Position numbers and translations under genes: made by a program. The notes beneath the pieces were generated by a model. The model searched no databases, was not told the origin of the DNA, and worked only from the letters and a program-made list of their open reading frames with translations. Source: Gordonia sp. (in: high G+C Gram-positive bacteria) (GTDB taxonomy: Bacteria > Actinomycetota > Actinomycetes > Mycobacteriales > Mycobacteriaceae). From it: a stretch of 45,938 nt of DNA. The DNA is taken from positions 1-45,938 of the forward strand of contig NZ_JAGQTN010000269.1 of the NCBI RefSeq assembly GCF_020438995.1, written 5' to 3'. Positions 30,630-45,938 of the stretch are shown one piece after another. Within the stretch, counting starts at the first letter, position 1; each line of letters opens with the position of its first letter.

Positions 30630-32630
30630 TCACACCTCGATCGGCGGATACAACCGGTCCATCGTGTACACCCGGTTGCGCCTCGCCGCCCACGAGCTGA
30701 CCGCGAGTGCGGCCAACAGCAACCCGAGCAGCACCGCCACCGCGATAGGAAGACGCTCGTCGACGCCGCCGTTGATGAGTTGGCGCATCCCGTTGACGGC
30801 GTAGGTCATCGGGTCGAACGGGTGCAGGATCTGGAACGGTCTGGCGGTGGTCTCCACCGGATAGATACCACCCGACGACACCATCTGCACCATCAGGAAT
30901 GCCAGCGTCAGGACGCGACCGACGGGTATCCCGAATATCGCGTTGAACATCTGGATGATCGCCAGATACGTTGCGCCGATGAGAATCACGAATGCGATGG
31001 CACCGGCGACGTGCGCGACGTCGAGCCCGAGCCCGAAGTGCACCACGAGGTACATGACCAGGCCCTGGCCGACGGCGATCAGCAGTGCGGGCCAGTAGGA
31101 GCTGAGAACGGTACGGATGGCGCTGACGCCGTTGACGATGGGCCGGGACTGCAACGGCTTGAGGATCATCCAGATCAGCATCGCCCCGATGAACAGGGCC
31201 AGCGTCATGAAGAACGGCGCGAATCCGGACCCGAAGTTGGGTGCCTCGTTGTCGTGGAACATGTCGAGAGCGACCGGCGACGACAACGTCTGGGCTGTTC
31301 CGATCCGCTGCTGATCGGACCATTTGGGTACCTGTTTGGCGCCGTCGGCCAGTCCGGCGGCGAGTTGTTCGGCGCCCGCCTTGAGTTGCGGTGTACCCGC
31401 GGCGAGTTGCCCTGCCCCGTCGGCGAGTTGTGTTCCGCCCGCGGCGAGTTGCGTGAGACCGCCTGCGAGAGTGTCGATGCCGGTCTTCAGTTGGGCCGAT
31501 CCGTCGCGCAACCTGGTGACCTGAGTGGTGAGGTCTCCGCTTTCGAGCATCGAGAGCATCGACGTGACCCCGGGATCGGACAGCTGCGTCGTCAGCGTCG
31601 TACTCGTCTGCTTCAGACCGTCGATCCGGGCGGTGGTCTGCGGGCTCAGCCCCTGCGTCGACAGGAATTTCTCCACCGGTGCAAGGGTTTTGGCCGCGTT
31701 GCGGACGGCCGGGTTCGGGTCGAGTTTGAGGAAGGTGATGATCTGCCGCACCGATCGCAGCGCCTCCCCCTGCGCCGACCCGGCAAGCGAAAGACTGTCG
31801 AGAACCGGGGACAATTCGGTGCTCAGTTGTTGCGCCGTAGTCACATACGACGACGGTTTCACTCCCGAACTCTGAAGCTGATTGATAATTCCCAGCAGTG
31901 GCCCGGTCGCCGACTCCACCCCGGCTGCCAGTTCGGCCGATCCGGCTTGCAGTTGCGCACTGCCGTCGCGGGCGGTGGCCAGGTTGTCGGCGAGCAGTTT
32001 GGATCCCGAAGCGAGTTGCTGCGCAGCCGAATCCGCTGTTGCCAGGTTGGTCGCGAGCAGCTTCGCGCCGGCCGACGCCTTGTCGATGCCCTTGCCCGCG
32101 GTGGTCAGGCCCACGAGCACCTGGTCGACGGACTGCTGTCCGATGGTGTCGCCGACTTTCGCGAGCACCTCTCGGGCCGCGTTCTGCCCGATGACGCTGG
32201 CGAGGTAGCTGTTGGCGTCGTTGAAGGTGAACTGCAGCAACGCTTTATGCGGGTTGGCGGTGTTCGGGGAGACGACGGCCGCGGAGAAGTCCTCGGGCAG
32301 TGTGATCGAGAAGTAATACTTGCCGTCGGCGACGCCACGCCGGGCATCCTCGGCCGACATCTCGGTGAGGTTGAGCTGTCCGGACGACTTCAGCGCCGCC
32401 GCCACTTGATCGCCGGCGTTGATTTTCTTACCGCCGTTGACCGCACCCTCGTCCAGGTTGACCAGCGCGGCGGGCATCTTGTTGACCTCGCCGAACGGAT
32501 TCCAGAACGCCCACAGGTACAGCGCACCGTACAGCAGCGGCAACAGCACCATCGTGATGACGGCGATCCTGGGCAGTGTGCCCCGCGAGTACCGCCTGAT
32601 CTCGGTGCCCAGCGACATTCCGGCCAGCAT
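30630..32630 (-). CDS. YhgE/Pip-domain ABC-2-type membrane protein
   Basis: A 666-residue protein with one N-terminal membrane segment (ITMVLLPLLYGALYLWAFW), a large external domain and about five C-terminal segments (ALFIGAMLIWMIL onward), the plan of YhgE/Pip proteins related to ABC-2 permeases and to T7SS-associated and phage-receptor proteins. YYFSITLPEDFSAAV and FTFNDANSYLASVIGQNAAREV are family-typical. The external domain has two blocks of heptad-like Leu/Ala/Gly repeats, e.g. TLAGGLTQLAAGGTQLADGA, that should form a long helical hairpin. Start ATG 32630 shares a base with the stop of the ATPase-like gene (TGATG). Confidence 0.88.
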   Translation of the reverse strand: MLAGMSLGTEIRRYSRGTLPRIAVITMVLLPLLYGALYLWAFWNPFGEVNKMPAALVNLDEGAVNGGKKINAGDQVAAALKSSGQLNLTEMSAEDARRGVADGKYYFSITLPEDFSAAVVSPNTANPHKALLQFTFNDANSYLASVIGQNAAREVLAKVGDTIGQQSVDQVLVGLTTAGKGIDKASAGAKLLATNLATADSAAQQLASGSKLLADNLATARDGSAQLQAGSAELAAGVESATGPLLGIINQLQSSGVKPSSYVTTAQQLSTELSPVLDSLSLAGSAQGEALRSVRQIITFLKLDPNPAVRNAAKTLAPVEKFLSTQGLSPQTTARIDGLKQTSTTLTTQLSDPGVTSMLSMLESGDLTTQVTRLRDGSAQLKTGIDTLAGGLTQLAAGGTQLADGAGQLAAGTPQLKAGAEQLAAGLADGAKQVPKWSDQQRIGTAQTLSSPVALDMFHDNEAPNFGSGFAPFFMTLALFIGAMLIWMILKPLQSRPIVNGVSAIRTVLSSYWPALLIAVGQGLVMYLVVHFGLGLDVAHVAGAIAFVILIGATYLAIIQMFNAIFGIPVGRVLTLAFLMVQMVSSGGIYPVETTARPFQILHPFDPMTYAVNGMRQLINGGVDERLPIAVAVLLGLLLAALAVSSWAARRNRVYTMDRLYPPIEV

Positions 32631-33337
32631 CAGCGACCACCTTCCCGGGTTGCGTCAAGTTGGTCGATCAGAAGTTGATGCCGGATCAGGTTGGGCACCG
32701 TGGTCTGGGTGCGCCAGCCGACGGCGGGTGGCAGCGGGTTGGCGGATGCGGTGATCACCGTCTGCGTGGTGCCCAGCGCGACGAGCCGCTCCACCAGCAG
32801 CCGCTGATCGCGCGCGTTGGCCACCTGGTCGACGGCCCCGACCACCAGCAGCGGGGGTCTACGGGTGTTGCCGAGCGCGATCCGCAGCAGCAGCCCGTCC
32901 AGTTCGGGCAGCTCTTCGACGTATTCATCGAGGTCGGGCAGTGGCAGGTCCCCGAACACCGGCCCGCACACCCGCCTCAGGTCGTCGGTGCGCGCCCGGC
33001 GCACCAGCGTGTACCAGGGCGCGTCCCAGCGGATCTGTTCGGTCAGGATGTCAACGACGCGCACCGATTCATAGACGGCGTCGAGCCCTTCGACACCCAC
33101 CATCCCGGCCCGGCGGAAGATCCGGCGGGGCGCGGATTCACCGAGGACGTCGAGGTCACCGCTGCGTGCCTTCATCCGGCCGGCCAGCGTCATCAGCAGG
33201 GCGGTGCGGCCGCTGCCCGCGGGCCCCACCAACACGTTCAGCCCGCCTTCGGGTATGTCGAGGTCGAGGGGCCCGTACACCGGCCCCCACGGCCCGGACT
33301 GGGTGATCGCACGTGCGGTGATCGCCGACGCGGCCAT
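32630..33337 (-). CDS. ABC ATPase-like protein with degenerate catalytic motifs
   Basis: A 235-residue protein shaped like an ABC nucleotide-binding domain and coupled to the YhgE/Pip gene. The Walker A loop reads VGPAGSGRTALL: the invariant Lys is Arg44. Where LSGGQ should be it has EELPELDGLLLRIALGN, and Walker B reads PPLLVVGAVDQVAN without the Asp-Glu pair. It may bind nucleotide weakly or serve as a non-hydrolysing partner. ATG at 33337 with GGAGGTG 3-5 bases upstream; an in-frame codon at 33376 is rejected. It lies 80 bases after ndh. Confidence 0.82.
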   Translation of the reverse strand: MAASAITARAITQSGPWGPVYGPLDLDIPEGGLNVLVGPAGSGRTALLMTLAGRMKARSGDLDVLGESAPRRIFRRAGMVGVEGLDAVYESVRVVDILTEQIRWDAPWYTLVRRARTDDLRRVCGPVFGDLPLPDLDEYVEELPELDGLLLRIALGNTRRPPLLVVGAVDQVANARDQRLLVERLVALGTTQTVITASANPLPPAVGWRTQTTVPNLIRHQLLIDQLDATREGGR

Positions 33338-33417
33338 CAGCACCTCCGTTATCTGATCGCAGCTGACGACGTTCACTATCGCGCATCACGATCGATCCGG
33401 AGAAACCGGCGTGGGTG

Positions 33418-34830
33418 TCAGGCTACTTCCTTACCCTCACCCGACCGCTGCTCCAACTGCTGCAATGCGGTGCGCCCGAACACCTGCTGCTCGGTGATCG
33501 CGAGCTGGCTACGGGACCGGGTGGTGAACGCGAGGGTCCAGTCGATGAAGGTGGTGAACCGGCTGCGGTGCCCGACGAGGTACATCAGGTGCAGGAACAG
33601 CCAACCGAGCCAGGCGAGGAAGCCGGCTAGCTCGATCTTCTTCTTGGTACCGGGGATCGGGATCTGCGCGACGGCACTGAACCGGGCGATGGTGGCCATC
33701 GAGCCTTTGTCCCAGTAGCTGAACGGTTTCCGCGATTCCACCGGGGCACCGGATAATCCGGCCTTGATCGCGTCGGTGGCGTAGCGGGCTCCCTGGATCG
33801 CACCCTGCGCCATACCCGGGACGCCGTCGACAAAAGCCATGTCGCCCACCACGAATACGTTGGGGTGGCCCGGAATCGTCAGGTCGGGAAGCACTTTCAC
33901 GCGGCCGGCGCGGTCGAGCTCCACCTCGCTCTGTGCGGCGAGCAGCTTGCCGAGGGGGCTGGCGGCGACACCCGCCGACCATACCTTGCACTGGCTTTCG
34001 ATACGGCGGGTGGTGCCGCCTGAGCCCGATGTGTCCGCGTCCTTGACCACGAGGCCGTCGTAGTCCATGTCGACGACCATCGCGCCGAGCTGCACCTCGA
34101 CGCCGAGCTTGGCGAGTTTCTCGGCGGCCTTCTGGCTGAGCTTGCCCCCGTACGGCGGCAGGACGACGGGTGCGCCGTCGAGCAGGATGACCCGCGCGGT
34201 GGTGGAGTCGATGTTTCGGAAGGTGCCTTTGAGCGTCTTGCGTGCCATCTCGGCGATCTGACCCGCCATCTCGACGCCGGTGGCGCCCGCACCGACGACG
34301 ACGAAGGTCAGCAGCCGGTCCCGTTCTTCCTCGTCGTCGGACAGTTCGGCCTGTTCGAACGCGCCGAGGATGCGGCCGCGCAGCTCGAGCGCGTCATCGA
34401 TGGTCTTGAGGCCGGGTGCGAACTCGGCGAACCGGTCGTTGCCGAAGTACGACTGCCCGGCGCCGGCGGCGATGATGATGCTGTCGTAGGGGGTGGTGGT
34501 GACTCGTTCGAGGAGCCGCGAGGTGACCGTCTTACCGGCGATGTCGATGTCCTCGACCTCGCCGAGGACCACGGTCAGGTTCTTCTGCTTGCGCCGCACC
34601 ACCCGGAACGGCGGCGCGATCTGGCCTTCGGAGATGATGCCGGTGGCCACCTGGTACAGCAGCGGCTGGAACAGGTGATGGGTCGTCTTGGCGATCACCG
34701 TGACGTCGACGTCGGTTTTGGCCAGTTCACGGGCGGCGGTGAGGCCACCGAATCCGGAGCCGATGACGACGACGTGATGGCGTGCCGGTGTGCCGGCCGC
34801 GTCCGTGGGTCGTACTGCCTTCGCTGACAT
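33418..34830 (-). CDS. ndh: Type II NADH dehydrogenase
   Basis: Single-subunit, non-proton-pumping NADH:quinone oxidoreductase on the inner face of the membrane. 470 residues with two dinucleotide folds, VVVIGSGFGGLTAARELA near residue 20 and TFVVVGAGATGVEMAGQIAEM near 175. Others are HHLFQPLLYQVATG, KVWSAGVAASPLG, VFVVGDMAFVDGVPGMAQGAIQGARYA, and a C-terminal amphipathic/hydrophobic region FLAWLGWLFLHLMYLVGHRSR for membrane attachment. ATG at 34830 with AAAGGA about 8 bases upstream; an in-frame start at 34896 lacks one. Confidence 0.96.
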   Translation of the reverse strand: MSAKAVRPTDAAGTPARHHVVVIGSGFGGLTAARELAKTDVDVTVIAKTTHHLFQPLLYQVATGIISEGQIAPPFRVVRRKQKNLTVVLGEVEDIDIAGKTVTSRLLERVTTTPYDSIIIAAGAGQSYFGNDRFAEFAPGLKTIDDALELRGRILGAFEQAELSDDEEERDRLLTFVVVGAGATGVEMAGQIAEMARKTLKGTFRNIDSTTARVILLDGAPVVLPPYGGKLSQKAAEKLAKLGVEVQLGAMVVDMDYDGLVVKDADTSGSGGTTRRIESQCKVWSAGVAASPLGKLLAAQSEVELDRAGRVKVLPDLTIPGHPNVFVVGDMAFVDGVPGMAQGAIQGARYATDAIKAGLSGAPVESRKPFSYWDKGSMATIARFSAVAQIPIPGTKKKIELAGFLAWLGWLFLHLMYLVGHRSRFTTFIDWTLAFTTRSRSQLAITEQQVFGRTALQQLEQRSGEGKEVA

Positions 34831-34950
34831 GGGCGCATCCTTTCGGTTCATCGGCGGCACCCAGGCGGTCGATGCCATCGTCGAAATACGCTCCATGCCG
34901 GTACTCCGGCTACGCCAGTCGCACTGCCGATGCTAATACAAGTAACACGA

Positions 34951-34980
34951 CCGACGCATCCGGCTTTGCGGATGCGTCGG
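34951..34980 (-). terminator. Terminator of the LuxR-type regulator gene
   Basis: Perfect 12-base arms CCGACGCATCCG and CGGATGCGTCGG with a 6-base loop. It lies 49 bases after the stop of the regulator on the minus strand; TCGTGTTACTTG follows in that direction. Confidence 0.75.
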
Positions 34981-35028
34981 TGGTGGCAGCGGTGTTCTGT
35001 GAGCGTGGGCGTTCAGTGCGCGTGGCGG

Positions 35029-35412
35029 TCAGCGGGCGACGGCCACCAAGGGCGTGGTGGGCATGTCGTCGTCCTCGTCCTGCGCCCCGAAGTCGAGCTT
35101 GTCGGCGATGTCGTCGAGCGTGCAGTAGCCGTCTTCGACGGCGCGGATCAGCAACGCGATCTTGGTTCCCGCGGGGCGGCCGACCTCCCGATACTTGGAC
35201 CGGATCCGGGCCAGGTGCGTGCGCACGGTGGCGACGGTGACGAACAGTTGGTCGGCCACTTCCACCTTGGTGTCGCAGACGAGCCAGGTGGCCAGGATCT
35301 CCACCTCGCGGACACTGAGGCGCGGAGAGGCCAAACCATGACCGATCAGCGGTCGCGCACCAGGCAGGGCAGGATGGGCGACGGGGCCGTGGGACACGAG
35401 CGAAGCTGTCAT
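35029..35412 (-). CDS. LuxR-type HTH regulator, stand-alone
   Basis: A 127-residue DNA-binding protein with no receiver or sensor domain. The helix-turn-helix region is at about 30-95: LSVREVEILATWLVCDTK, ADQLFVTVATVRTHLARIRSKYREVGRPAG, KIALLIRAVEDGY. The spacing fits the LuxR/GerE fold but the usual START motif is altered (LSVREVEIL). The tail is acidic (FGAQDEDDD). AGGAG is 6-7 bases before the ATG. No partner kinase is adjacent. Target unknown; a perfect palindrome at 35557-35570 upstream could be an operator. Confidence 0.88.
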   Translation of the reverse strand: MTASLVSHGPVAHPALPGARPLIGHGLASPRLSVREVEILATWLVCDTKVEVADQLFVTVATVRTHLARIRSKYREVGRPAGTKIALLIRAVEDGYCTLDDIADKLDFGAQDEDDDMPTTPLVAVAR

Positions 35413-36271
35413 CTGTTTCTCCTACATCCAGGCTCGGCATCGCCCAGACGACCGATTCGCATCAGCAACCCGACGATGTGTGAAAGCAAAGCCCCCCGCC
35501 GCGAACCTGAATATATGCCAACAACTACCTGTGCGTATAGACGATAAAACGTGCGACACCAGTACTGGTGGCACCGTTACCTGAACTAAGTGGAAAATTG
35601 CCCAAAATCAGGGTCTTTAGGCACTTTTCACGACTCACGCCTACGCGGTAGCAGCCTCGCGATATGGACGGAAGGCTTCGTGTAACGCCTGTCTGGCACC
35701 CGACGATAGTCGGACGCCGGGCGGCCGTCGATACACCCTCCGGTCTACAGTCCCGGCCCACGCCGGCGGCGGACACCACCGGTCCGGCACCCCCACGACC
35801 GGAACCCTTCCGGCCGAGGTGTCCCGACACAAGGTCCATACCCCACATGCTGCGTAATCATGAAAATCTGACTTCATGGTTCTGAATAGTCCTGCGCGAA
35901 TCGGATTCCACCCTTTGTTCCGACAAATACCCATGTCCCCCAAACGGAGTAACAATCGACAAATGCAGGCCATATTTCAACAGATTCTTCAACCTCGACA
36001 GTTGCTTACCGCAGCGTGAGGTAACCACGTTCACCAAGCGAGAACATGCAGGTAGAACCGCTTTCAGGGCGCGCTCGCGACGACGTCGACCCCACCGAAC
36101 GGTTTGATCCCGGACGCCCGGTTCCGCACGGCAAGCAAGTAACATTCGTGTCATTCTTCCGATTCGTCCTCCAATTGGACGAGTGACCAACTAATCTGCG
36201 AGCATCGAGTCGTTGGGGGAGCCTCGTAGCGTCGGCCCCACCGCAGAAGGTTGATATTCGAGGGGAGTCAC
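35413..36271. other. Gene-poor, AT-richer spacer of 859 bases
   Basis: No open frame here looks protein-like: the candidates on both strands are short, biased in composition and without ribosome sites. The left end must hold the promoter of the LuxR-type gene. TATATT on the minus strand (35510-35515) is a possible -10 box, and CACCAGTACTGGTG (35557-35570) is a perfect palindrome. Near 36010, TTACC and GGTAA flank a 10-base loop. The rest shows nothing I can name. An untranslated RNA cannot be excluded. Confidence 0.6.
35557..35570. promoter_or_regulatory. Perfect 14-base palindrome upstream of the LuxR-type gene
   Basis: CACCAGTACTGGTG, fully self-complementary, 145 bases before the ATG and about 42 bases upstream of the candidate -10 box TATATT (minus strand). 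Likely a dimeric-regulator site; which regulator is unknown. Confidence 0.5.
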
Positions 36272-36631
36272 ATGTCCGCGCCGGATAGTTCGACAGGCAG
36301 CACAGTGTCGCCCGGCAGCGCAGTGTCGCCCGGCAGCGCCGCACGACCGTACCCACCCGTCGCCCACCTGGGCGATGCCGCCCTCGCCCAGGCGATGCAC
36401 GACGATTCCAGGATGCGGACCACCGAAACAACCTCTGCCCCCGAGGCCGCGCCCGCCGAATCGTCGACCCGACTCCTGCGGCTGATCACCCTCGTCCAAG
36501 ACGAGGACACCTCAGCATCGGCCGACGACACCAAGGCCCAGGTACTCGATGAGCTCGAAGCGATCATCGAGGTGCAGCAGGAAACGCTCGCTCGCCTGGA
36601 GTGCCTCTACCAGACCATCCGCGAGCTATAG
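36272..36631 (+). CDS. Small hypothetical protein
   Basis: Not recognised. 119 residues from the ATG at 36272, with GGGGAG 5-6 bases upstream. The N-terminal half is Ser/Pro/Ala-rich and looks disordered; the C-terminal ~55 residues look like an acidic helical bundle or coiled coil (LLRLITLVQDEDTSASADD; AQVLDELEAIIEVQQETLAR). An exact 18-base tandem duplication (36303-36320 and 36321-36338, unit CAGTGTCGCCCGGCAGCG) encodes the repeated VSPGSA. No membrane segment or catalytic motif. Confidence 0.7.
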   Translation: MSAPDSSTGSTVSPGSAVSPGSAARPYPPVAHLGDAALAQAMHDDSRMRTTETTSAPEAAPAESSTRLLRLITLVQDEDTSASADDTKAQVLDELEAIIEVQQETLARLECLYQTIREL

Positions 36632-36671
36632 GGCGGCCAACTTAGACGAACACTAGTTCGATTACAAGACT

Positions 36672-36700
36672 TTGTCAAAGGTTTATCAGACCGCTAGTAT
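36672..36700 (+). promoter_or_regulatory. Strong leaderless sigma70-type promoter
   Basis: TTGTCA (36672-36677), a 17-base spacer, TAGTAT (36695-36700), then 6 bases to the ATG at 36707. This is near consensus at both boxes and at the spacing. The transcript start falls at or next to the ATG, so the message should be leaderless. Confidence 0.75.
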
Positions 36701-36706
36701 GTTCGC

Positions 36707-37177
36707 ATGGTCGCCACCGAAACCTTCACCGAACTCCTGCGCCGCCCCCGCGACGTCGTCGCCCTCACCGACGAGGGGCCGGTCCACATCACGCGCCGCG
36801 ACGCCGACGACCTCATTCTCATGCGCGCCGACGACCTCGAACAACAGGAGAAGGGCATCGCGCTGGCATCGTCACTGCTGCGGGCCACACTGAGTTCCGA
36901 CGGCAACCTGACCACGGCATTCGACTCCCTCTACCCGTGGTTCGCACTCCTGTCGGCCGTCGAGCAGAAAAATTGCATCGACGACGTGTCCAAGCACCTA
37001 TGGAGCGCCGCCGATCTCGGTACGTACGGAACGCTACTGTCGCGGGTGACCGGCTGGCGCACCACCGCGGAGGGGTATGCAAGCGGTGCCACGGCACAAG
37101 CCGACTTCCGATGGACCCGTGAACCCGTCACCGAAACCGCAGCCTCCGCCAAGAAGCGACGGCCCACCCGCAGGTAG
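36707..37177 (+). CDS. Phd/YefM-like antitoxin homologue, apparently without a toxin
   Basis: 156 residues. The first ~60 resemble 'prevent-host-death' type antitoxins: ETFTELLRRPRDVVALTDEGPVHITRRDADDLILMRADDLE, shown here in two parts as ETFTELLRRPRDVVALT and VHITRRDADDLILMRADDL. The longer C-terminal part (FDSLYPWFALLSAVEQKNCIDD; LGTYGTLLSRVTGWRTTAEGYA) is not one I can place and may bind a partner or be the functional half. The C-terminus is basic (KKRRPTRR). No toxin gene follows on this strand; the next 65 bases hold a repeat arm. Driven by a strong leaderless promoter. Confidence 0.7.
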   Translation: MVATETFTELLRRPRDVVALTDEGPVHITRRDADDLILMRADDLEQQEKGIALASSLLRATLSSDGNLTTAFDSLYPWFALLSAVEQKNCIDDVSKHLWSAADLGTYGTLLSRVTGWRTTAEGYASGATAQADFRWTREPVTETAASAKKRRPTRR

Positions 37178-37242: not shown

Positions 37243-37671
37243 TTACCCGGTCACCCAGTACTGCCCTTGAACCCAACCCGAAGCCGCGGCACGACTTTTC
37301 GGATGCGCTTTCACATACGCGCGCATCCGCCCCGGGTTCTCCGTCATCCTCTGCGCAACAGCCTGGAAGCCCATGTCATCGCATTGTGACCGCGTCACCC
37401 CGGTACGCGCACCGACACACTTGTCGATGGCAACCTTCTTGGGTGCTCCCATACGCCACTTGTCGACGCCCACGAGCACGGCCTTGAGCGTCGGCCCGGT
37501 GACGACCCATCCACCCTCAGTACATATCCTGCTCGGGCAATCACTCGGCCGATCGGGCCACAGCACAGCCTGCGCACCCGACGACGCCCGCGCCTCACCC
37601 GCCGCCACGAATACCCCGGACATACCCACCACGACGCCCGCGAGGACCGCCACCACATCTTTCATCCGCAT
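37243..37671 (-). CDS. Small secreted protein of unknown function
   Basis: Not recognised. 142 residues with a clear signal peptide: MRMK, hydrophobic VVAVLAGVVVGMSGVFVAA, then GEARASSGAQA as the cleavage region near residue 28. The mature part has four Cys (SDCPSRIC; DKCVGARTG; SQCDDMGF), enough for two disulfides, and a C-terminus SGWVQGQYWVTG. AGGAG is 5 bases before the ATG at 37671; the frame extends to 37710 without such a site. Convergent with the antitoxin-like gene. Confidence 0.8.
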   Translation of the reverse strand: MRMKDVVAVLAGVVVGMSGVFVAAGEARASSGAQAVLWPDRPSDCPSRICTEGGWVVTGPTLKAVLVGVDKWRMGAPKKVAIDKCVGARTGVTRSQCDDMGFQAVAQRMTENPGRMRAYVKAHPKSRAAASGWVQGQYWVTG

Positions 37672-37836: not shown

Positions 37837-38694
37837 GTGCCAGCGAACGAAACATGGTCTGCTTCGGAGGTTGAGGCATGCGTCGCCGACTATCTCTACA
37901 TGATGGCGCTTGAATTCAACGGGCAAAAGTACAACAAGGCGGAACGCGCGCGGACGCTTGCCGCCAACTTAAATGGGCGAACAGATAAGGCGGTAAAGTA
38001 CAAGTGGCATAATATTAGCGCCGTCATGCTGGAACTCGGATACCCGCACCATCCGGGATACAAGCCTGCGAAGAACTACCATCGGATATTAGTTGACGAG
38101 GTATCAAAGCAACTATTGACAAACGAATCACTCCGAGCAGCCGTCGAGGATATCGTGAGCCGACCTGCCGTAGTACCACCTGTCGGAGCGATCCCAGGCG
38201 ACATCGTGTGGCGAGCGGTCAGTCCACCAGCACCGACAACAATATCCCATGGCTTCCACGACACACCAACGTTCAGCGCCGCGAAACGTGACTACTTTGC
38301 AATCGAAGCCAGGAACCGTTCACTGGGGGAAGCCGGTGAAAAACACGTTGTCGAGATGGAGATACGTCGACTGTGGGAGGCCGGACAACAAAAGCTCAGC
38401 AACCGAGTTGAGCACGTGTCACAAACGGCCGGTGATGGCCTTGGATACGACATCCACTCATTTGAGGTAGATGGCCGCGAACGTCTCATCGAGGTGAAGA
38501 CGACATCCTTCGAAATCCGGACGCCCTTCTACGTTAGTCGCAATGAACTGGACCGATCGAGAGCCGATTCCGATATCTACCACCTATACCGAGTTTTCGA
38601 GTTTCGTGAGGAGCCCAAGCACTTCATCCTCTCTGGCCACATCAGCGACCACTGCCAACTCAACGCCGAAACGTACCTGGCCCGAGTCGACTGA
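37837..38694 (+). CDS. DUF3883 nuclease-like protein with N-terminal specificity-type domain
   Basis: 285 residues. The N-terminal ~90 (SASEVEACVADYLYMMALE, YNKAERARTLAANLNGRT, AVKYKWHNISAVMLELGYP, GYKPAKNYHRIL) form a domain also met in front of HNH and other restriction-type nucleases, probably for DNA recognition. The C-terminal ~120 are DUF3883, a PD-(D/E)xK-like fold, with the motif GYDIHSFEVDGRERLIEVKTT: Asp205, Glu219 and Lys221 fit the catalytic D-ExK. GTG at 37837 with GGAAGG 7 bases upstream. The helicase gene follows after 35 bases, suggesting a shared operon and joint action on foreign DNA. GC is lower than in the flanks. Confidence 0.85.
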   Translation: MPANETWSASEVEACVADYLYMMALEFNGQKYNKAERARTLAANLNGRTDKAVKYKWHNISAVMLELGYPHHPGYKPAKNYHRILVDEVSKQLLTNESLRAAVEDIVSRPAVVPPVGAIPGDIVWRAVSPPAPTTISHGFHDTPTFSAAKRDYFAIEARNRSLGEAGEKHVVEMEIRRLWEAGQQKLSNRVEHVSQTAGDGLGYDIHSFEVDGRERLIEVKTTSFEIRTPFYVSRNELDRSRADSDIYHLYRVFEFREEPKHFILSGHISDHCQLNAETYLARVD

Positions 38695-38729
38695 TCTCAT
38701 CGCGGCACCGTCCAGGCGGCGGGCACCAC

Positions 38730-41700
38730 ATGTCAGACGGTTATGGTCTACTCGCACCTGTGACTGAACCCCTCGCGCCGGGCATCTACGAGTCGCTCCA
38801 CACGCAGCGGCTGCAGAGTTCTGTCGCTCGCACGGAGCTTGAACCCGAGTACCGGCCGCTGGCCGAAGGCGACGAGCCGCATGTGCTCGCGCGCCATGTC
38901 GCTTCGGCGGTCGAGCGTCACCTCGCTCACGTCAGGGGTTCCGGGGAACGGATCGCCGTCGTTAACGACATCGTCGCTGGCCTTGGCCACTCCGACGGTG
39001 ACGATATTTCCGAATCTGCGCACCTTACCGCGCTCAGCCTGGCCGGACAGGCGCCCCCACGACGGCCAGAAACGCCACTGTCCGACGTTGCGCTTCTAAC
39101 CAACACGCGCGACGAGCCGAACATGGCAAGCGAAATCGGTCGCGAACTGGAGAGCGCCGACCACGTCGATCTGCTCTGCGCGTTCATTCGGTTTGCTGGC
39201 GTCGCGGTCATCGGACGTGAGCTCGCACGGCTACGCGAGCGCGGCGTGAAGCTGCGCGTCGTCACCACGACATACCGCGGGGCGACCGAACAGCGCGCGG
39301 TCGATGAACTGGTGACAAAATACGGCGCCGAGGTTCGCATCCGCTACGAGACGGCATCGACCCGGCTCCATGCGAAGGCGTGGCTGTTCCGCCGAAACTC
39401 AGGGTTCGATACTGGGTATGTCGGCAGTTCCAACTTGTCCCGGTCGGCGATGGTCGACGGCCTTGAATGGAACGTTCGGATCTCGAGCGTCGCAACCCCC
39501 GCTTTGACCCGGAAATTTGAAGCGACCTTCGATACCTATTGGGATGACCCTGCTTTCAAGCAGTACGATCCAGAGTCTGACTCTGATCTCCTCGACCGCG
39601 CACTTCGCGAGGCGGGCGGCCAAGGCACATCTCGCGATGCTCTCACGGTGTCTGGTCTGGATGTTCGCCCCTATCCACACCAAGAACGGATCCTCGAAGC
39701 GCTCGAAGTCGCCCGCGTTGTCCACGACCGACACCGCAACCTCGTCGTGGCAGCAACAGGCACGGGCAAGACGGTCGTCGCAGCACTCGACTACCAGAAT
39801 CTCTGCGATGCAGCCGGACGACGCCTTTCACTGCTGGTCGTCGCGCACCGTAAGGAGATCCTTGAGCAATCCCTCCGCAAGTATCGGGAAGTGTTGGGTG
39901 ACGGAAACTTTGGCGAGCTCTACGTCGACGGACACAAGCCGTCGGAGTGGACCCATGTGTTCGCAAGCGTCCAATCTCTGAGCTCACGCGGAGCCAGAGA
40001 TTTTGACGCTACCCACTTCGATGTCATTGTCATCGACGAATTCCATCACGCGGCAGCCGAAACGTACCGGTCGCTACTGTCCCGCGTCACACCGAGCGAA
40101 TTGCTTGGCCTTACGGCTACCCCAGAGCGCAGCGACGGCGCCGACATCCTCGGCTGGTTCGATGGGCAAGCCACCTACGAGCTGCGGCTGTGGAACGCCC
40201 TCGAACAAGACCTACTGTGCCCATTCCACTATTACGGGATCGCCGACAACACCGACCTACGTGACGTCACGTGGTCGGGTGGCGACTACCAGGTCGCTGC
40301 GCTCGAGAACCTGTACACCGGCAATGAAGCGCGAACTCGATTGATTCTCAACGCAGTTCGCGACTACATTGCGTACCCAAAGGTCATGCGCGCCCTTGGG
40401 TTTTGCGTGTCGATCGCTCACGCCCACTACATGGCAGACTCGTTCACCAAGCAAGGAATCGCATCTGTGGCCCTGTCCGCGAATACGCCACGCGAGGAAC
40501 GCGCTCAGGCATTCGCCGACCTGGGGAACGGCAAGGTCCAGTGCCTCTTCGCCGTCGACATTTTCAACGAGGGTATCGACATTCCCAATGTCGATACCCT
40601 CCTGATGCTCCGGCCAACGCAGAGCGCAACAGTGTTTCTTCAACAGCTCGGTCGAGGACTACGGCGGAGCGCCACCAAGGCTGTGTTGACCGTTCTCGAT
40701 TTCATCGGCCACCAGCGTACTGAGTTCAACTTCGCTCCGCGTTTCAGTGCCCTTACCGGCGCGCACTACAAGCACCTCGTCGACGAGGTGGAGGGCGGCT
40801 TCCCGTTCCTGCCTGGCGCGAGTCGTCTCGTCCTCGATCGGCAATCGCAAGAGATTGTGCTCAATTCGATTCGACGGCAGCTTCCCACGAACCAACGCCG
40901 CGCGCTCGTCGAGTCTGTGCGTTCCACAGGCGAACCCATATTGTCGGACTATCTCGCCAAGACTCGCGGCGAGCTCTCCGACATCTACGCAGGCACCGGC
41001 AGTAGCACCAGAGCGTGGACACCCTTGCTGCGCGACGCAGGCATCGACACACCCGCCGCAGGTCCAGCCGAAGCCTCGCTTCTCAAACGGGTCCGAGCCC
41101 TCGCCCACGTCGATGACCTGGAACGGATCACCGCGTACCGTACGCTCGCGTCGGCCGATTGCCCGGAGTACACGAATCTTTCCGAGCGGGACCAGGCGTA
41201 CGCCCGCATGCTCTTCTTCACCCTATGGTCTGATCGCGGTGGATTTGATTCCTACGAGACTGGGTTCGCTCATCTCCGCAACCACCCGGCGATCTGCTCT
41301 GAGATCGACCAAGTCCTGGCTGTCGCCACCGCGAGCATCAACCACATCCCTAAATCATTGCAGGATCTGGGCGACTCATGCCCCCTCTACTCACATGCGA
41401 CCTACCGTAAGGAAGAGGTGCTCGCAGCAATAGGTTTCGCAAACTCTGAAAGGAAGGCTCGAGGTCAGGCTGGAGGTGCTGTCGGTATCGGCCAGTTCGA
41501 ATCTCTGTTCGTAACCCTCCACAAAGACGAATCGGAGTTCAGTCCAGCGACAATGTACCGCGATTTCCCCGTTTCTCGCGAAACCTTCCACTGGGAATCG
41601 CCCAACAACACTGCTGCCAACTCTGACCGTGGCCGCCGTTGGCTCGACCAACGAACCAACGGGGTCAACGTACTGCTGTTCGTTCGTGACCGCACGAACG

Positions 41701-41846
41701 GACTCTATGGCGCGGACCCGTTCATCCTGCTCGGGCCAGTCGACTACGTCAGCCACCGCGGCGAACGCCCCATCTCCGTCACCTGGAGGCTACGCCGCCC
41801 CATGCCGGCCGATGTGTTCGCAAGCGGTTCCATCGTGGGCGAGTAG
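38730..41846 (+). CDS. PLD-like nuclease / SF2 helicase / DUF3427 protein
   Basis: 1038 residues. After ~130 N-terminal residues comes a phospholipase-D-like nuclease domain with STRLHAKAWLF (His214, Lys216) and YVGSSNLSRSAM. Then the SF2 helicase core: Walker A VAATGTGKTVVAAL (Lys347), Walker B VIVIDEFHHA (Asp436-Glu437), LGLTATPER, VDIFNEGIDIPNVD and motif VI QQLGRGLRR (638-646). DUF3427 fills the C-terminal ~350 residues. Such proteins are found in restriction and defence loci. Only one HxK half-site is seen, so PLD activity may need a dimer. No good ribosome site precedes the ATG. Together with the upstream DUF3883 gene it likely forms a nuclease-helicase pair without a methyltransferase. 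Confidence 0.92.
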   Translation: MSDGYGLLAPVTEPLAPGIYESLHTQRLQSSVARTELEPEYRPLAEGDEPHVLARHVASAVERHLAHVRGSGERIAVVNDIVAGLGHSDGDDISESAHLTALSLAGQAPPRRPETPLSDVALLTNTRDEPNMASEIGRELESADHVDLLCAFIRFAGVAVIGRELARLRERGVKLRVVTTTYRGATEQRAVDELVTKYGAEVRIRYETASTRLHAKAWLFRRNSGFDTGYVGSSNLSRSAMVDGLEWNVRISSVATPALTRKFEATFDTYWDDPAFKQYDPESDSDLLDRALREAGGQGTSRDALTVSGLDVRPYPHQERILEALEVARVVHDRHRNLVVAATGTGKTVVAALDYQNLCDAAGRRLSLLVVAHRKEILEQSLRKYREVLGDGNFGELYVDGHKPSEWTHVFASVQSLSSRGARDFDATHFDVIVIDEFHHAAAETYRSLLSRVTPSELLGLTATPERSDGADILGWFDGQATYELRLWNALEQDLLCPFHYYGIADNTDLRDVTWSGGDYQVAALENLYTGNEARTRLILNAVRDYIAYPKVMRALGFCVSIAHAHYMADSFTKQGIASVALSANTPREERAQAFADLGNGKVQCLFAVDIFNEGIDIPNVDTLLMLRPTQSATVFLQQLGRGLRRSATKAVLTVLDFIGHQRTEFNFAPRFSALTGAHYKHLVDEVEGGFPFLPGASRLVLDRQSQEIVLNSIRRQLPTNQRRALVESVRSTGEPILSDYLAKTRGELSDIYAGTGSSTRAWTPLLRDAGIDTPAAGPAEASLLKRVRALAHVDDLERITAYRTLASADCPEYTNLSERDQAYARMLFFTLWSDRGGFDSYETGFAHLRNHPAICSEIDQVLAVATASINHIPKSLQDLGDSCPLYSHATYRKEEVLAAIGFANSERKARGQAGGAVGIGQFESLFVTLHKDESEFSPATMYRDFPVSRETFHWESPNNTAANSDRGRRWLDQRTNGVNVLLFVRDRTNGLYGADPFILLGPVDYVSHRGERPISVTWRLRRPMPADVFASGSIVGE

Positions 41847-41885
41847 CGCCCCGTTCCCACTCCCCGACACACGAAAGGCTCACCC

Positions 41886-42218
41886 GTGACCGACACCCCG
41901 TTCCGCATCCCGACTCTCACGACGGCGAAGTTCGACGACCACGGCCCTGGATTCGACGACATGGAAATAGTCTGCGGACTGCAGGAACCCGCCGACTACA
42001 TACTGAATGGCGTTGAAAACCACGACCGTGCAGGCTTCGCCAGCGTCGGTCTCACTGCGTACGCAAAGTTCACAGGAACCTATCGCAACGAGTCGGTGTT
42101 CACCGCGATGCGTGACATGGTCAACGACCTGCACCATCTCGCAGATGCGATGGGCCTCGACTGGGCCGAAGTCTCCGAACAGTGTCAGTACGAGCACGAG
42201 ATCCGGTTCAATGACTGA
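41886..42218 (+). CDS. Small acidic protein of unknown function, downstream of the helicase
   Basis: Not recognised. 110 residues, acidic, without membrane segments or Cys pairs. Notable stretches are DDMEIVCGLQEPADYILNGV and VFTAMRDMVNDLHHLADAMG, with a His-rich helix and a C-terminus EQCQYEHEIRFND. GTG at 41886 with AAAGG 8 bases upstream. It starts 39 bases after the helicase and so probably belongs to the same operon; a regulator, inhibitor or sensor role is conceivable, but nothing in the sequence decides it. Confidence 0.75.
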   Translation: MTDTPFRIPTLTTAKFDDHGPGFDDMEIVCGLQEPADYILNGVENHDRAGFASVGLTAYAKFTGTYRNESVFTAMRDMVNDLHHLADAMGLDWAEVSEQCQYEHEIRFND

Positions 42219-42359: not shown

Positions 42360-44126
42360 ATGATGACGGGTAATGCCCAATTAAGCGCCCACGAGCTCGA
42401 GCTTTCGAAGGTCTTCAATCGCGATTTCGACTTCAGAATTCCCGAGTACCAACGGCCGTACTCATGGCAGCCTGAACACGCCCGTCAGCTCCTCGATGAC
42501 CTCAGCGAAGCGCTAGACCGAGAGGACGACGAACCATATTTCCTTGGATCGATCGTACTGGTCAAAGACGAGAAGAACCCAGAAGCAGACGTCATTGACG
42601 GGCAACAGCGACTCACCACACTGACTATCTTGCTCGCCACACTTCGCGATCTATCCACCAATCCCCGATTCGCCAGCGAACTCGCTCTCATGATCGAAGA
42701 ACCTGGGAGTCAGCTTCACGGGCGGGTTGAAAAACCGCGCCTCGCACTCCGGCCACGCGACGCCGAATTCTTTGCTTCCAACGTACAGAAGCCTGGCTCA
42801 ACGGTTCAGATGGAATCTATGAGCGACCATTACGTGTCGCGAGATTCATTGCGCGCAATCCGCGACAATACCCTGGAATTCCGCAAACAGCTCCAATCCG
42901 ATTCGTGGCCAGAATCGCGGCGCGAGCAACTGTCGACGCTTCTCAGCATTCGCACACTGATGGTTGTAGTTACAACGACCGATCTCGACAGCGCATATCG
43001 CATATTCAGCGTGATGAATGCTCGTGGCCTCAACTTGGAACCTACCGATATTTTCAAGTCACAGCTCGTCGGGTCGATCGACTCGGATGATACACGCAAG
43101 AAATATGCGGAGAAATGGGAAGATGCTGAGGCATTTCTCGGCCGTAGCGACTTCAAAGACCTGTTCGGTCACATCCGAACAATCCACACAAAACAACGAC
43201 CCCAAAAGGTAATCCTCAGCGAATTCCCCCGGCAAGTTCTCAACTCCTACATCAAGACCGGACGGTCCACGGAGTTCGTCGATCAAGTCTTGCAGCCTTA
43301 CTCGGAAGCTTACAAGCAAATCTGCAATTCCTCCTACGAATCAGGCGCCGCAGGCGCCGACGAAGTAAACTCCTGGCTGCGAAGGCTGAACCGAATCAAC
43401 AATAGCGATTGGCGTCCGGTGGCGCTGTGGGCACTTCATTCACAAGGCGACAACCCCCCATGGCTAGCAGACATACTCCGACTCCTGGAGCGACTTGCTG
43501 CCAGCATGCTGATCCGGCGTGTATACGCAACGCCGAGGGCGCAGCGATACGCAGAGGTCCTGCGGGATCTTGACGAGAAGGGTTTAGGACTCGCCTCGCC
43601 TGCCCTACAACTCAGTTCAGCCGAGATTCGCAATACCAGAGAGATCTTGGACGGCGACGTCTACCTCCACGCGAATAGTTGTAGGTACATCCTCCTCCGA
43701 CTCGACGAAAGCCTCGCTGATATCAAGTCGGTGTGGTCGGACGAGAAGAAGATCACGATCGAGCACGTACTGCCACAGAATCCCACGGCACGCTCACAGT
43801 GGACCAAGACTTTCAGCAACAGTGATCGCGAACTGTGGACACATCGGCTTGCGAATCTCGTCCTACTTAGTAGGTCGAAGAACTCGGCTTCGCAAAACTT
43901 TGACTTCGACAAAAAGAAGACGCAGTACTTCACCGGAAAGACCGGCGTGGCAACCTTCGCCCTGACCACCCAGGTCCTGGGTCATGCAAAGTGGGACACG
44001 AAGGTACTTGAACATAGGCAGCCTGAGCTCTTGCAAACCCTCTACTCTGAATGGCAGCTTCAAGATCGGCCACAGGTTGCTTCCGGCGTTGATTACCGAC
44101 ACCGCCATCGTGCCACCTCGCTGTAA
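42360..44126 (+). CDS. DUF262-DUF1524 endonuclease (GmrSD-type, fused)
   Basis: 588 residues combining both halves of GmrSD-like type IV restriction enzymes, which cut modified (for instance glucosylated) phage DNA using nucleotide. The N-terminal DUF262/ParB-like half has RIPEYQRPYSW, FLGSIVLV and VIDGQQRLTTLTILLATL (Asp80-Gly-Gln-Gln-Arg). The C-terminal DUF1524 His-Me nuclease half has KITIEHVLPQNP (His469) and HRLANLVLLSRSKNSAS followed by FDKKKTQYF. GC is low for the window. The fused single chain resembles BrxU-like proteins. It probably has its own promoter. Confidence 0.92.
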   Translation: MMTGNAQLSAHELELSKVFNRDFDFRIPEYQRPYSWQPEHARQLLDDLSEALDREDDEPYFLGSIVLVKDEKNPEADVIDGQQRLTTLTILLATLRDLSTNPRFASELALMIEEPGSQLHGRVEKPRLALRPRDAEFFASNVQKPGSTVQMESMSDHYVSRDSLRAIRDNTLEFRKQLQSDSWPESRREQLSTLLSIRTLMVVVTTTDLDSAYRIFSVMNARGLNLEPTDIFKSQLVGSIDSDDTRKKYAEKWEDAEAFLGRSDFKDLFGHIRTIHTKQRPQKVILSEFPRQVLNSYIKTGRSTEFVDQVLQPYSEAYKQICNSSYESGAAGADEVNSWLRRLNRINNSDWRPVALWALHSQGDNPPWLADILRLLERLAASMLIRRVYATPRAQRYAEVLRDLDEKGLGLASPALQLSSAEIRNTREILDGDVYLHANSCRYILLRLDESLADIKSVWSDEKKITIEHVLPQNPTARSQWTKTFSNSDRELWTHRLANLVLLSRSKNSASQNFDFDKKKTQYFTGKTGVATFALTTQVLGHAKWDTKVLEHRQPELLQTLYSEWQLQDRPQVASGVDYRHRHRATSL

Positions 44127-44253: not shown

Positions 44254-44811
44254 TCAGCTGACGACTTCACGGACAATTGCCGCGACTTGCGGGTTGGTGA
44301 TGTTCGCGAGAATGGCGAGGACTTGTTCGGATGTCTGTGGACGCGAGTTGACGCCCATGCGGTGTGCGTCGCGAAGGCTGTCGGGATGGGCTGACGCGAG
44401 GTGCCGCAGGAGGGTTCCGGCGTCGACCAGGCGGATACCTCGCTTGGCCATCCAATCCTTCGGAAAATGGCGGACGTTCTGTGTCAGCAGCACGTCAGCA
44501 TCCGCTGAGAGTGCCGCAGCCAGGACATGTCTGTCCTTGGGATCCATGTCGACCTTTGCGACTCGCGCCTCCTCACGCTTGTTGATCTCGACCAACGCGG
44601 TCGGCAGATACGCCGACAGTCGGTCGACCAAGATGTCCGCTGCCTCGGGGGTGAAGTTGAACTGCTTGATGAGGTTGCGGGTGGTCTCCTCGAGAATCGG
44701 CTCGCTCCAATGGATGTCGAGTACTCCCAGTTTCGCGGAGTAGACGACGTAGTCGCGCAGTGTCCGCGAGATCAGTATGTTCGCGTCGGCGAGAGTGACC
44801 GACAGGTTCAA
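44254..44811 (-). CDS. PIN-domain toxin, VapC-like
   Basis: 185 residues. PIN ribonuclease fold: VTLADANILIS (first Asp), EPILEETTRNLI (Glu), DPKDRHVLAAAL (acidic pair) and DVLLTQNVRHFP (last conserved Asp region). The C-terminal ~45 residues (VNSRPQTSEQVLAILANI) form an added helix domain. It starts with TTG at 44811, overlapping the antitoxin TGA by 4 bases (TTGA), the usual coupling of toxin-antitoxin pairs. Likely cleaves RNA, often tRNA or rRNA in this family; the target is unknown. The 127 bases before it on the right of the GmrSD gene hold nothing recognisable. Confidence 0.88.
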   Translation of the reverse strand: MNLSVTLADANILISRTLRDYVVYSAKLGVLDIHWSEPILEETTRNLIKQFNFTPEAADILVDRLSAYLPTALVEINKREEARVAKVDMDPKDRHVLAAALSADADVLLTQNVRHFPKDWMAKRGIRLVDAGTLLRHLASAHPDSLRDAHRMGVNSRPQTSEQVLAILANITNPQVAAIVREVVS

Positions 44812-45185
44812 TCGAGGTTCCCGTACTTGTTCGCCAGGTCGGCGACGACTGCCATATGGTCCTCGTCGAGGAACTCGCGCATTTTCTGGATCGACGAGGC
44901 AGGGATGCGGTGATGCTTGCCGACCATGCGGAACTCGATGCGTTTGCGTTCAATCATCCGCATCAGCGTCGGCCTGGACATCCCGAGGAGCTTTGCTGCC
45001 TCAGTGGTGGTGAACTCGTGTTTGGCGGGGATGACGAGGGCTCCGGTGGTTTGCTCGGCGTCGAGCAACGCCAGCACCTTCTTGGCGCTTTCGCGGGGGA
45101 GGCGCAGCGTTACCTCGATCTCCGGCTGATCACCGGCCAGTTCTAAACGCAAAGCCTCGACGTCCTCGGTCAGTGAGTGGCTCAT
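44808..45185 (-). CDS. HTH (excisionase-type) antitoxin of the PIN toxin
   Basis: 125 residues. The N-terminal half (DQPEIEVTLRLPRESAKKVLALL) looks like a small dimerisation domain. The C-terminal half is an excisionase/MerR-like winged helix: FTTTEAAKLLGMSRPTLMRMIERKRIEFRMVGKHHRIP, here in two parts FTTTEAAKLLGMSRPTLMRM and EFRMVGKHHRIPASSI. This differs from the AbrB or RHH folds of ordinary VapB antitoxins. ATG at 45185 with AGGAG 5 bases upstream. It probably represses its own operon through the CTAAGTG repeats upstream. Confidence 0.88.
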   Translation of the reverse strand: MSHSLTEDVEALRLELAGDQPEIEVTLRLPRESAKKVLALLDAEQTTGALVIPAKHEFTTTEAAKLLGMSRPTLMRMIERKRIEFRMVGKHHRIPASSIQKMREFLDEDHMAVVADLANKYGNLD

Positions 45186-45210
45186 ATCATCTCCTGGAGG
45201 CCATACCCGG

Positions 45211-45228
45211 CTAAGTGCTCTAAGTGTA
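45211..45228 (-). promoter_or_regulatory. Direct-repeat operator and -10 box of the toxin-antitoxin operon
   Basis: CTAAGTG at 45211-45217 and again at 45220-45226 (9-base phase, plus-strand reading). On the minus strand TACACT at 45223-45228 fits a -10 box 38 bases before the antitoxin ATG. Repeats overlapping the promoter would allow autorepression by the HTH antitoxin. Confidence 0.5.
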
Positions 45229-45253: not shown

Positions 45254-45938
45254 TCAAAACGGTGGCGGGTTGGCTTCGTCCCATTTGCGCTGGTCGTCGG
45301 CCAGTTTGGTGATCCGTTTCTGGCGGGCGGTGTCGAGGGATGCTCGGGCGGGGTGGTCGGGGTCGCGGTGTGGGATGAGGCCAGGGAACAGGGTGCGGCC
45401 AGTGAAGAAGGCGGCGTGGAACTCGTGGCCGGTGGGGGATTGGAACCAGCCGTGGCCTAGGTCGTCTTGGTAGTCCTGCCAGCTCGTGAACGTCTTGATG
45501 CGGTGGTGGAAGCGGCAGAGTGGTTTGAGGTTGGTGAGGACTGTTTGACCGCCTTGGGTGGGGTTGCGGTGGTCGAAGGGAGTGGTGTGGTCGATGTCGG
45601 CTTTCCAGACCGGGGAGTTGCAGCCGGGGAAGGTGCAGCACAACTCCCCTGCCTTGACCAGGTTGATCAGCTTCTTGCTGGGGGTGTACCTGGTGGGCTG
45701 CCGGTCGGCTTGCTTGGTGTGGGTGTTGAGGTAGCTGCGTTCGGCTTCGACGACCATCGTGCGCAGGGTGGCGGCGTCGATGATGCCGTGGCCGTCGAGA
45801 AAGCCCGGGTCGTTGTCCAGGCCGAGCAGGGTCGACAGGTTGACCACGATGTGAAACACCGGGCGTGCACCCGAACCGCATCCGTCGACACCGCATCCGT
45901 CGATCGAGTGCCGTCGCGAGCGGTCGGCGGCGGGAGCA
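45254..45938 (-). CDS. DUF222-HNH endonuclease-like protein (13E12 family), start outside window
   Basis: The frame stays open to the last base, so the N-terminus is missing; about 227 residues are visible. The end of the DUF222 domain (FHIVVNLSTLLGLDNDPGFL) is followed by a zinc-type HNH: CTFPGCNSPVWKADIDHTTP, then LKPLCRFHHRIKT. Such genes are multicopy in mycolate bacteria; the M. tuberculosis 13E12 repeats are members and are attachment targets for phiRv1 prophage. A 13-base direct repeat, CCGCATCCGTCGA at 45876-45888 and 45891-45903, encodes a repeated VDGCG. Convergence with nothing: the antitoxin gene follows on the same strand after 68 bases. Confidence 0.9.
   Translation of the reverse strand, partial: APAADRSRRHSIDGCGVDGCGSGARPVFHIVVNLSTLLGLDNDPGFLDGHGIIDAATLRTMVVEAERSYLNTHTKQADRQPTRYTPSKKLINLVKAGELCCTFPGCNSPVWKADIDHTTPFDHRNPTQGGQTVLTNLKPLCRFHHRIKTFTSWQDYQDDLGHGWFQSPTGHEFHAAFFTGRTLFPGLIPHRDPDHPARASLDTARQKRITKLADDQRKWDEANPPPF

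Follow-up and report, generated by a model that had tools for sequence, protein, structure and literature searches.

Restriction-type defence genes around a SauUSI-like enzyme at a probable chromosomal defence hotspot in Gordonia sp.

Results and Discussion

Does a short run of closely spaced defence genes in Gordonia sp. constitute one multi-gene system, or is it an assembly of separate modules? The question is raised by the right-hand part of the window, as we call the whole stretch of 45,938 nucleotides that was analysed. The initial annotation described here three same-strand genes, for a DUF3883 nuclease, a PLD-helicase-DUF3427 protein and an unrecognised 110-residue protein, with gaps of 35 and 39 bases, and its coordinates, strand and domain assignments were all recovered in our analysis. 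A fourth gene, absent from that annotation, follows on the same strand after 141 bases and encodes a GmrSD-type protein; beyond it lies a PIN/HTH gene pair before the contig ends at position 45938 (Table 1). It is proposed, with a probability of roughly 80%, that the block brings together restriction-type defence genes, each acquired independently, at a defence hotspot of the chromosome and is not one multi-gene system; this reading is based on homology, domains, catalytic residues, the lack of linkage in the searched genomes, the differing site of one relative and the lack of a PF00145 match in the host.

Table 1. Features of the defence block and its right flank (positions in the window).
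Feature	Coordinates	Strand	Remarks
285-aa PDC-S36 family nuclease, DUF3883/NOV_C PD-(D/E)XK-type (P0001)	37837..38694	+	GTG start
1038-aa SauUSI-like Type IV restriction enzyme (P0002)	38730..41846	+	ATG start
110-aa protein, actinophage small-protein family phrog_3963 (P0003)	41886..42218	+	GTG start
588-aa single-chain GmrSD-type (DUF262 + DUF1524) predicted nuclease (P0004)	42360..44126	+	
PIN-domain protein	44254..44811	-	Pfam PIN_3 1.7e-8; NCBIfam RSP_2648-type PIN 5.9e-26, below cut-off
HTH_17/excisionase-type DNA-binding protein	44808..45224	-	Pfam HTH_17 2.5e-12; TIGR01764 5.6e-13

Composition and layout of the block

Transfer of the block had been suggested from a hand count of 31/60 GC at 38041-38100. 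The count was reproduced, and because 2% of the 60-mers in 1-35400 are as GC-poor, it is a weak sign by itself. The whole four-gene block is GC-poor, its genes having GC contents of 54.5, 61.1, 58.6 and 54.6%, lower than the 66.4% of 1-35400. Transfer is supported by homology. A scan of the plus strand between the four genes found no terminator-like sites; since the genes are close together on one strand, they may be co-transcribed and could co-operate. Next to the block, the PIN and HTH genes probably form a toxin-antitoxin pair in which the PIN protein is the toxin and the HTH protein its partner.

A SauUSI-like Type IV restriction enzyme

By its homology the 1038-aa protein is a relative of SauUSI, the characterised Type IV (5mC-dependent) restriction enzyme of Staphylococcus aureus. 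According to excerpts of its structural report, SauUSI combines a PLD nuclease with an SF2 ATPase, a coupler and a target domain of the SRA fold (PMC7913695); excerpts of a review name its C-terminal domain DUF3427 and report cleavage of m5C and hm5C DNA by the single polypeptide (PMC3874153). The 1038-aa protein has the same architecture in one chain. It matches the PADLOC model mREase_IV with 1058 bits over residues 110-1032 and PDB entry 7clg with an E-value of 5.2e-87, strongly over residues 122-714 and weakly in a second stretch within the C-terminal target domain; we take 7clg to be the crystal structure of SauUSI, given its length (953 residues), its name 'putative helicase' and the residue numbering of PMC7913695. 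An N-terminal PLD nuclease domain (PLDc_2, 4.7e-12) with the HxK motif at 214-216 (H214, K216) is followed by an SF2 helicase-like ATPase (ResIII, Helicase_C and the 7clg alignment) and by a C-terminal DUF3427/SRA target domain (5.9e-19 at 843-1030). The HxK and Walker A motifs of SauUSI are kept, and the catalytic assignments made earlier for these domains agree with the alignment of the helicases, where K216 and K347 (the Walker lysine) are conserved in 30 of 31 rows, the odd row (L036) being a wrong-frame translation. The protein differs from SauUSI in about 90 additional residues ahead of the PLD domain. The NgoAVII and CglI restriction enzymes likewise combine a PLD nuclease with an SF2 helicase, but according to excerpts of PMC7913695 they are composed of two subunits with a B3 recognition domain, whereas the 1038-aa protein is one chain with DUF3427.

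The second difference from SauUSI lies in the base-reading loop. A hand count along the 7clg alignment places F841, I842, D858 and W868 of the SauUSI pocket at F927, V928, D945 and W955, so that four of the six named positions have the same residue or a conservative replacement; the comparison covered all of the six but M829, and the fifth position, that of Y831, is altered. The position of Y831, ten residues before F841, corresponds by spacing and alignment to G919, accompanied by a two-residue deletion, and is occupied in 29 relatives by W (26) or by Y, R or H (one each). The loop (residues 914-921, window 41469-41492) thus lacks the aromatic residue that most relatives have there and is two residues shorter. 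In its anatomy the protein is thus a complete enzyme of the SauUSI type in which one element of the base-reading loop is altered, and the modification that it reads may differ. A further step would be that sensing of modified bases is lost or changed in the helicase, which would then be either decaying or reading another modification; the glycine and the deletion at a position where 26 of 29 relatives have tryptophan favour this, but the intact 1038-aa frame, the PLD and Walker motifs and the retained D945 and W955 speak against it, and we regard it as improbable.

By analogy, the protein most likely works as SauUSI does. The DUF3427/SRA domain would bind modified cytosine in incoming DNA, and this binding would turn on the ATPase; a dimer would then translocate, after which the PLD nuclease would cut. 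We infer every one of these biochemical steps, as well as 5mC as the trigger for this member, from the characterised enzyme.

Self-protection and C5 methyltransferases

The lack of a methyltransferase in the block had led to the suggestion that self DNA is spared by modification sensing, by DNA ends or by replication forms, and the first of these routes is supported by the homology to SauUSI. The methyltransferase expected of a C5 restriction-modification system is absent from the host as far as family PF00145 in a 98.6% complete draft genome is concerned, which fits the requirement of a 5mC-dependent enzyme; self DNA would be spared because the host makes no 5mC.

Across the order, PF00145 (1e-10) was matched in 34 of 80 genomes with a SauUSI-type enzyme and in 48 of 80 without one (46 of 73 when enzyme-negative genomes at least 90% complete are considered). 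The enzyme-positive side comprised 80 of the 99 such genomes other than the window's own (G000), partial or incomplete ones being mostly dropped, and the enzyme-negative side 80 of 297, hand-picked from a random list. Fisher's test on all 160 genomes gave p 0.039, and stratification by genus an odds ratio of 0.40 (z -2.05). Avoidance between the enzyme and C5 methyltransferases across the order is therefore modest and exclusion far from strict; the 34 enzyme-bearing genomes that still have a C5 methyltransferase count against the proposed reading.

The PDC-S36 nuclease

The 285-aa protein matches the PADLOC PDC-S36 model over its full length (1.5e-99, 331 bits, residues 1-284 against 1-279/280) and shows no difference from it by profile. 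PDC stands for phage defence candidate, with one ORF per entry, in excerpts of PMC11514479; our literature search found no publication naming PDC-S36, and its phage defence role is, from sequence, that of a candidate family. The Pfam NOV_C/DUF3883 domain occupies residues 167-264 (5.1e-21), and the catalytic residues D205, E219 and K221 picked out in the initial annotation are invariant across 50 aligned sequences. The recognition-type N-terminal domain claimed there is helical, and its Myb/trihelix likeness is weak (Myb_DNA-binding, 0.044, under the cut-off). The AF2 model has a mean pLDDT of 90.2, and its structural matches to Hjc and SPARDA nucleases are of middling strength. The 285-aa protein is most likely a stand-alone DNA nuclease, in which the helical N-terminal domain would recognise DNA and the DUF3883 PD-(D/E)XK domain would cleave it.

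A second NOV_C/DUF3883 domain is present in the host at contig C164:31577-31834, inside a frame of 1203 codons. PDC-S36 relatives (E 1e-30) also occur in 1125 plasmid records of PLSDB, 843 of them conjugative (e.g. L179); identity is 40-41% among the matches listed, and those from enterobacteria aligned in two pieces.

In 80 PDC-S36 loci from named genomes, a C5 methyltransferase lies within 2.5 kb of the nuclease gene in eight (L068, L081, L098, L106, L107, L115, L128 and L131; four of the eight were confirmed by Pfam), whereas the outer 930 kb of these loci yielded none. It is therefore plausible that some PDC-S36 nucleases act as restriction partners of C5 methyltransferases. The search used as seeds the methyltransferases found plus two more, so divergent ones may be missed; with none found in the other 72 loci, PDC-S36 is solitary as a rule in this sample, as is the member in the window. 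The linkage in eight loci and the lack of a PF00145 match in the host would also suit an origin of the 285-aa nuclease as the restriction half of a C5-type system whose methyltransferase was lost, leaving an orphan remnant or a rare-site reader. The 72 loci in which no methyltransferase was found count against such an origin, as does the scattering of the methyltransferase-linked members on the tree (seven changes, little under the mean of 7.7 in shuffles), and we consider it unlikely. Tentatively, and with less than even confidence, PDC-S36 may be viewed as a class of widespread small restriction nucleases with Myb/trihelix-like helical recognition and a DUF3883 domain, mostly solitary and repeatedly joined by a C5 methyltransferase; a single scaffold would then serve both in modification-blocked and in solitary, possibly modification-dependent, enzymes. 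No description of PDC-S36 as such a class was found in the literature search.

The 110-aa and GmrSD-type proteins

The 110-aa protein had been called unrecognised. This holds for Pfam, in which no family reaches the gathering score, but not for PHROG, in which it matches family 3963 at 1e-17. Relatives annotated as hypothetical proteins occur in 16 records of phages of Gordonia and Mycobacterium, and in three phage records inspected the relative sits among short genes, mostly of unassigned function. The protein may be a phage-related passenger or a modulator; the modulator role is speculative, and so is one in counter-defence in phages. Its family was matched in 10 of the 397 genomes surveyed from the order, the window's included, and of the other nine only G222 has the helicase family, on a different contig.

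The likeness to GmrSD-type enzymes concerns the fourth gene, outside the region 37837..42218 of the initial annotation. The 588-aa protein contains both domains that define membership, GmrSD_N (Pfam, 2.7e-37) and GmrSD_C (2.2e-27), in one chain, as do GmrSD-type Type IV enzymes (PADLOC Orf5/HEC-06; Eco94GmrSD), and scores 486 bits against PADLOC Orf5. It is predicted to be the third nuclease of the block, and its family is found in 12 of 397 genomes, the window's included.

Linkage of the families in other genomes

The survey covered 397 genomes of the order, with the helicase family defined by PADLOC mREase_IV at 1e-60. The family is present in 100 of them and stands beside a DUF3883 gene only in the window's genome. 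PDC-S36 gave 22 matches, and those in the window, G329 and G357 cover the whole profile; G329 is without an mREase_IV match and G357 has a partial one about 260 kb away, while G163, G236 and G277 have the helicase and a weaker PDC-S36 match far apart or on separate contigs. Neither the PDC-S36 nuclease nor the 110-aa protein was found near 29 other helicase loci fetched from the 99 other genomes with 1.5 kb flanks, one of which (L049) shows a weak match to the 588-aa protein. No SauUSI relative was found in six other PDC-S36/DUF3883 loci of 20 kb each, one of which (L030) has a distant helicase match. Among the 80 PDC-S36 loci none contains the 110-aa family, one (L135) has a distant partial helicase match, and one (L101, Pseudoxanthomonas) has a SauUSI-type relative within 10 kb, a 42% identical helicase 4.1 kb downstream of PDC-S36. 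For some loci the flanks were short or ran into a contig end, the latter in several of the 80.

Four cases were counted against independence: the L101 helicase; a 24% relative of the 588-aa protein adjoining PDC-S36 in L118; a weak DUF3883 match in G375 that is part of a longer frame and lies 8.6 kb from the helicase; and a partial helicase match 8 kb from a member of the 588-aa family in G348. Besides these, L028 (10288-10800) and L029 (9551-10866) carry DUF3427 stretches directly before DUF3883 stretches, in other frames, a sequence-level hint that the two domains may be combined elsewhere.

The co-occurrence that had been suggested as a check on the proposed operon was thus searched for within limited flanks, and the three families were not found together. 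The defence-system models assign the helicase to mREase_IV and the nuclease to PDC-S36. That the DUF3883 nuclease, the helicase and the 110-aa protein nevertheless form one co-operating defence operon, as a young combination seen only here, would agree with their gaps and common strand, with the neighbouring DUF3427 and DUF3883 stretches in L028 and L029 and with the loose linkage in L101. However, linkage is lacking in the 29 other helicase loci and in 79 of the 80 PDC-S36 loci (some ended early by contigs), and SauUSI is active as a single polypeptide in the review excerpts cited above (PMC3874153). The closest relatives searched differ as well: the PDC-S36 nuclease groups with Lysobacterales sequences (tree support 100/98), the 110-aa protein belongs with actinophages, and the closest relative of the helicase, searched within the order, is a 60% match in a genome of the same family (L051). 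We consider one co-operating operon very improbable. As no other searched genome yielded the set, it probably does not represent a new system, and the earlier idea of an unnamed three-gene system is left unsupported, given a SauUSI-type helicase, a listed PDC-S36 nuclease and families that were not found together in the genomes searched; the defence role it ascribed to the genes is supported by homology.

The chromosomal site

Among the matches listed from 31 genomes of the genus (window included), the closest relative with the left flank is G414, 82% identical over 32005-35753, which also retains 36470-37080 and 37262-37588 of the window. In its syntenic locus (L177, G414:C1:243000-262900), the equivalent of 37262-37588 is directly followed by a C5 methyltransferase, a 1608-aa TmtA-like helicase, a GmrSD_N protein and DISARM DrmA and DrmB; transposase-like ORFs, read from their starts, are also present. 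Different defence genes at the same site in two close genomes are what a defence hotspot looks like; the evidence comes from a single comparison, since the matches listed include no further relative whose flank reaches the site.

The block is most likely composed of known-type restriction modules, with a SauUSI-type enzyme at its centre, in a defence hotspot. An apparent three-gene defence operon is thereby removed as a false lead, the genes being most likely separately spread modules. A SauUSI relative with an altered base-reading loop is brought to notice, and a testable side question is opened on how PDC-S36 nucleases relate to C5 methylation.
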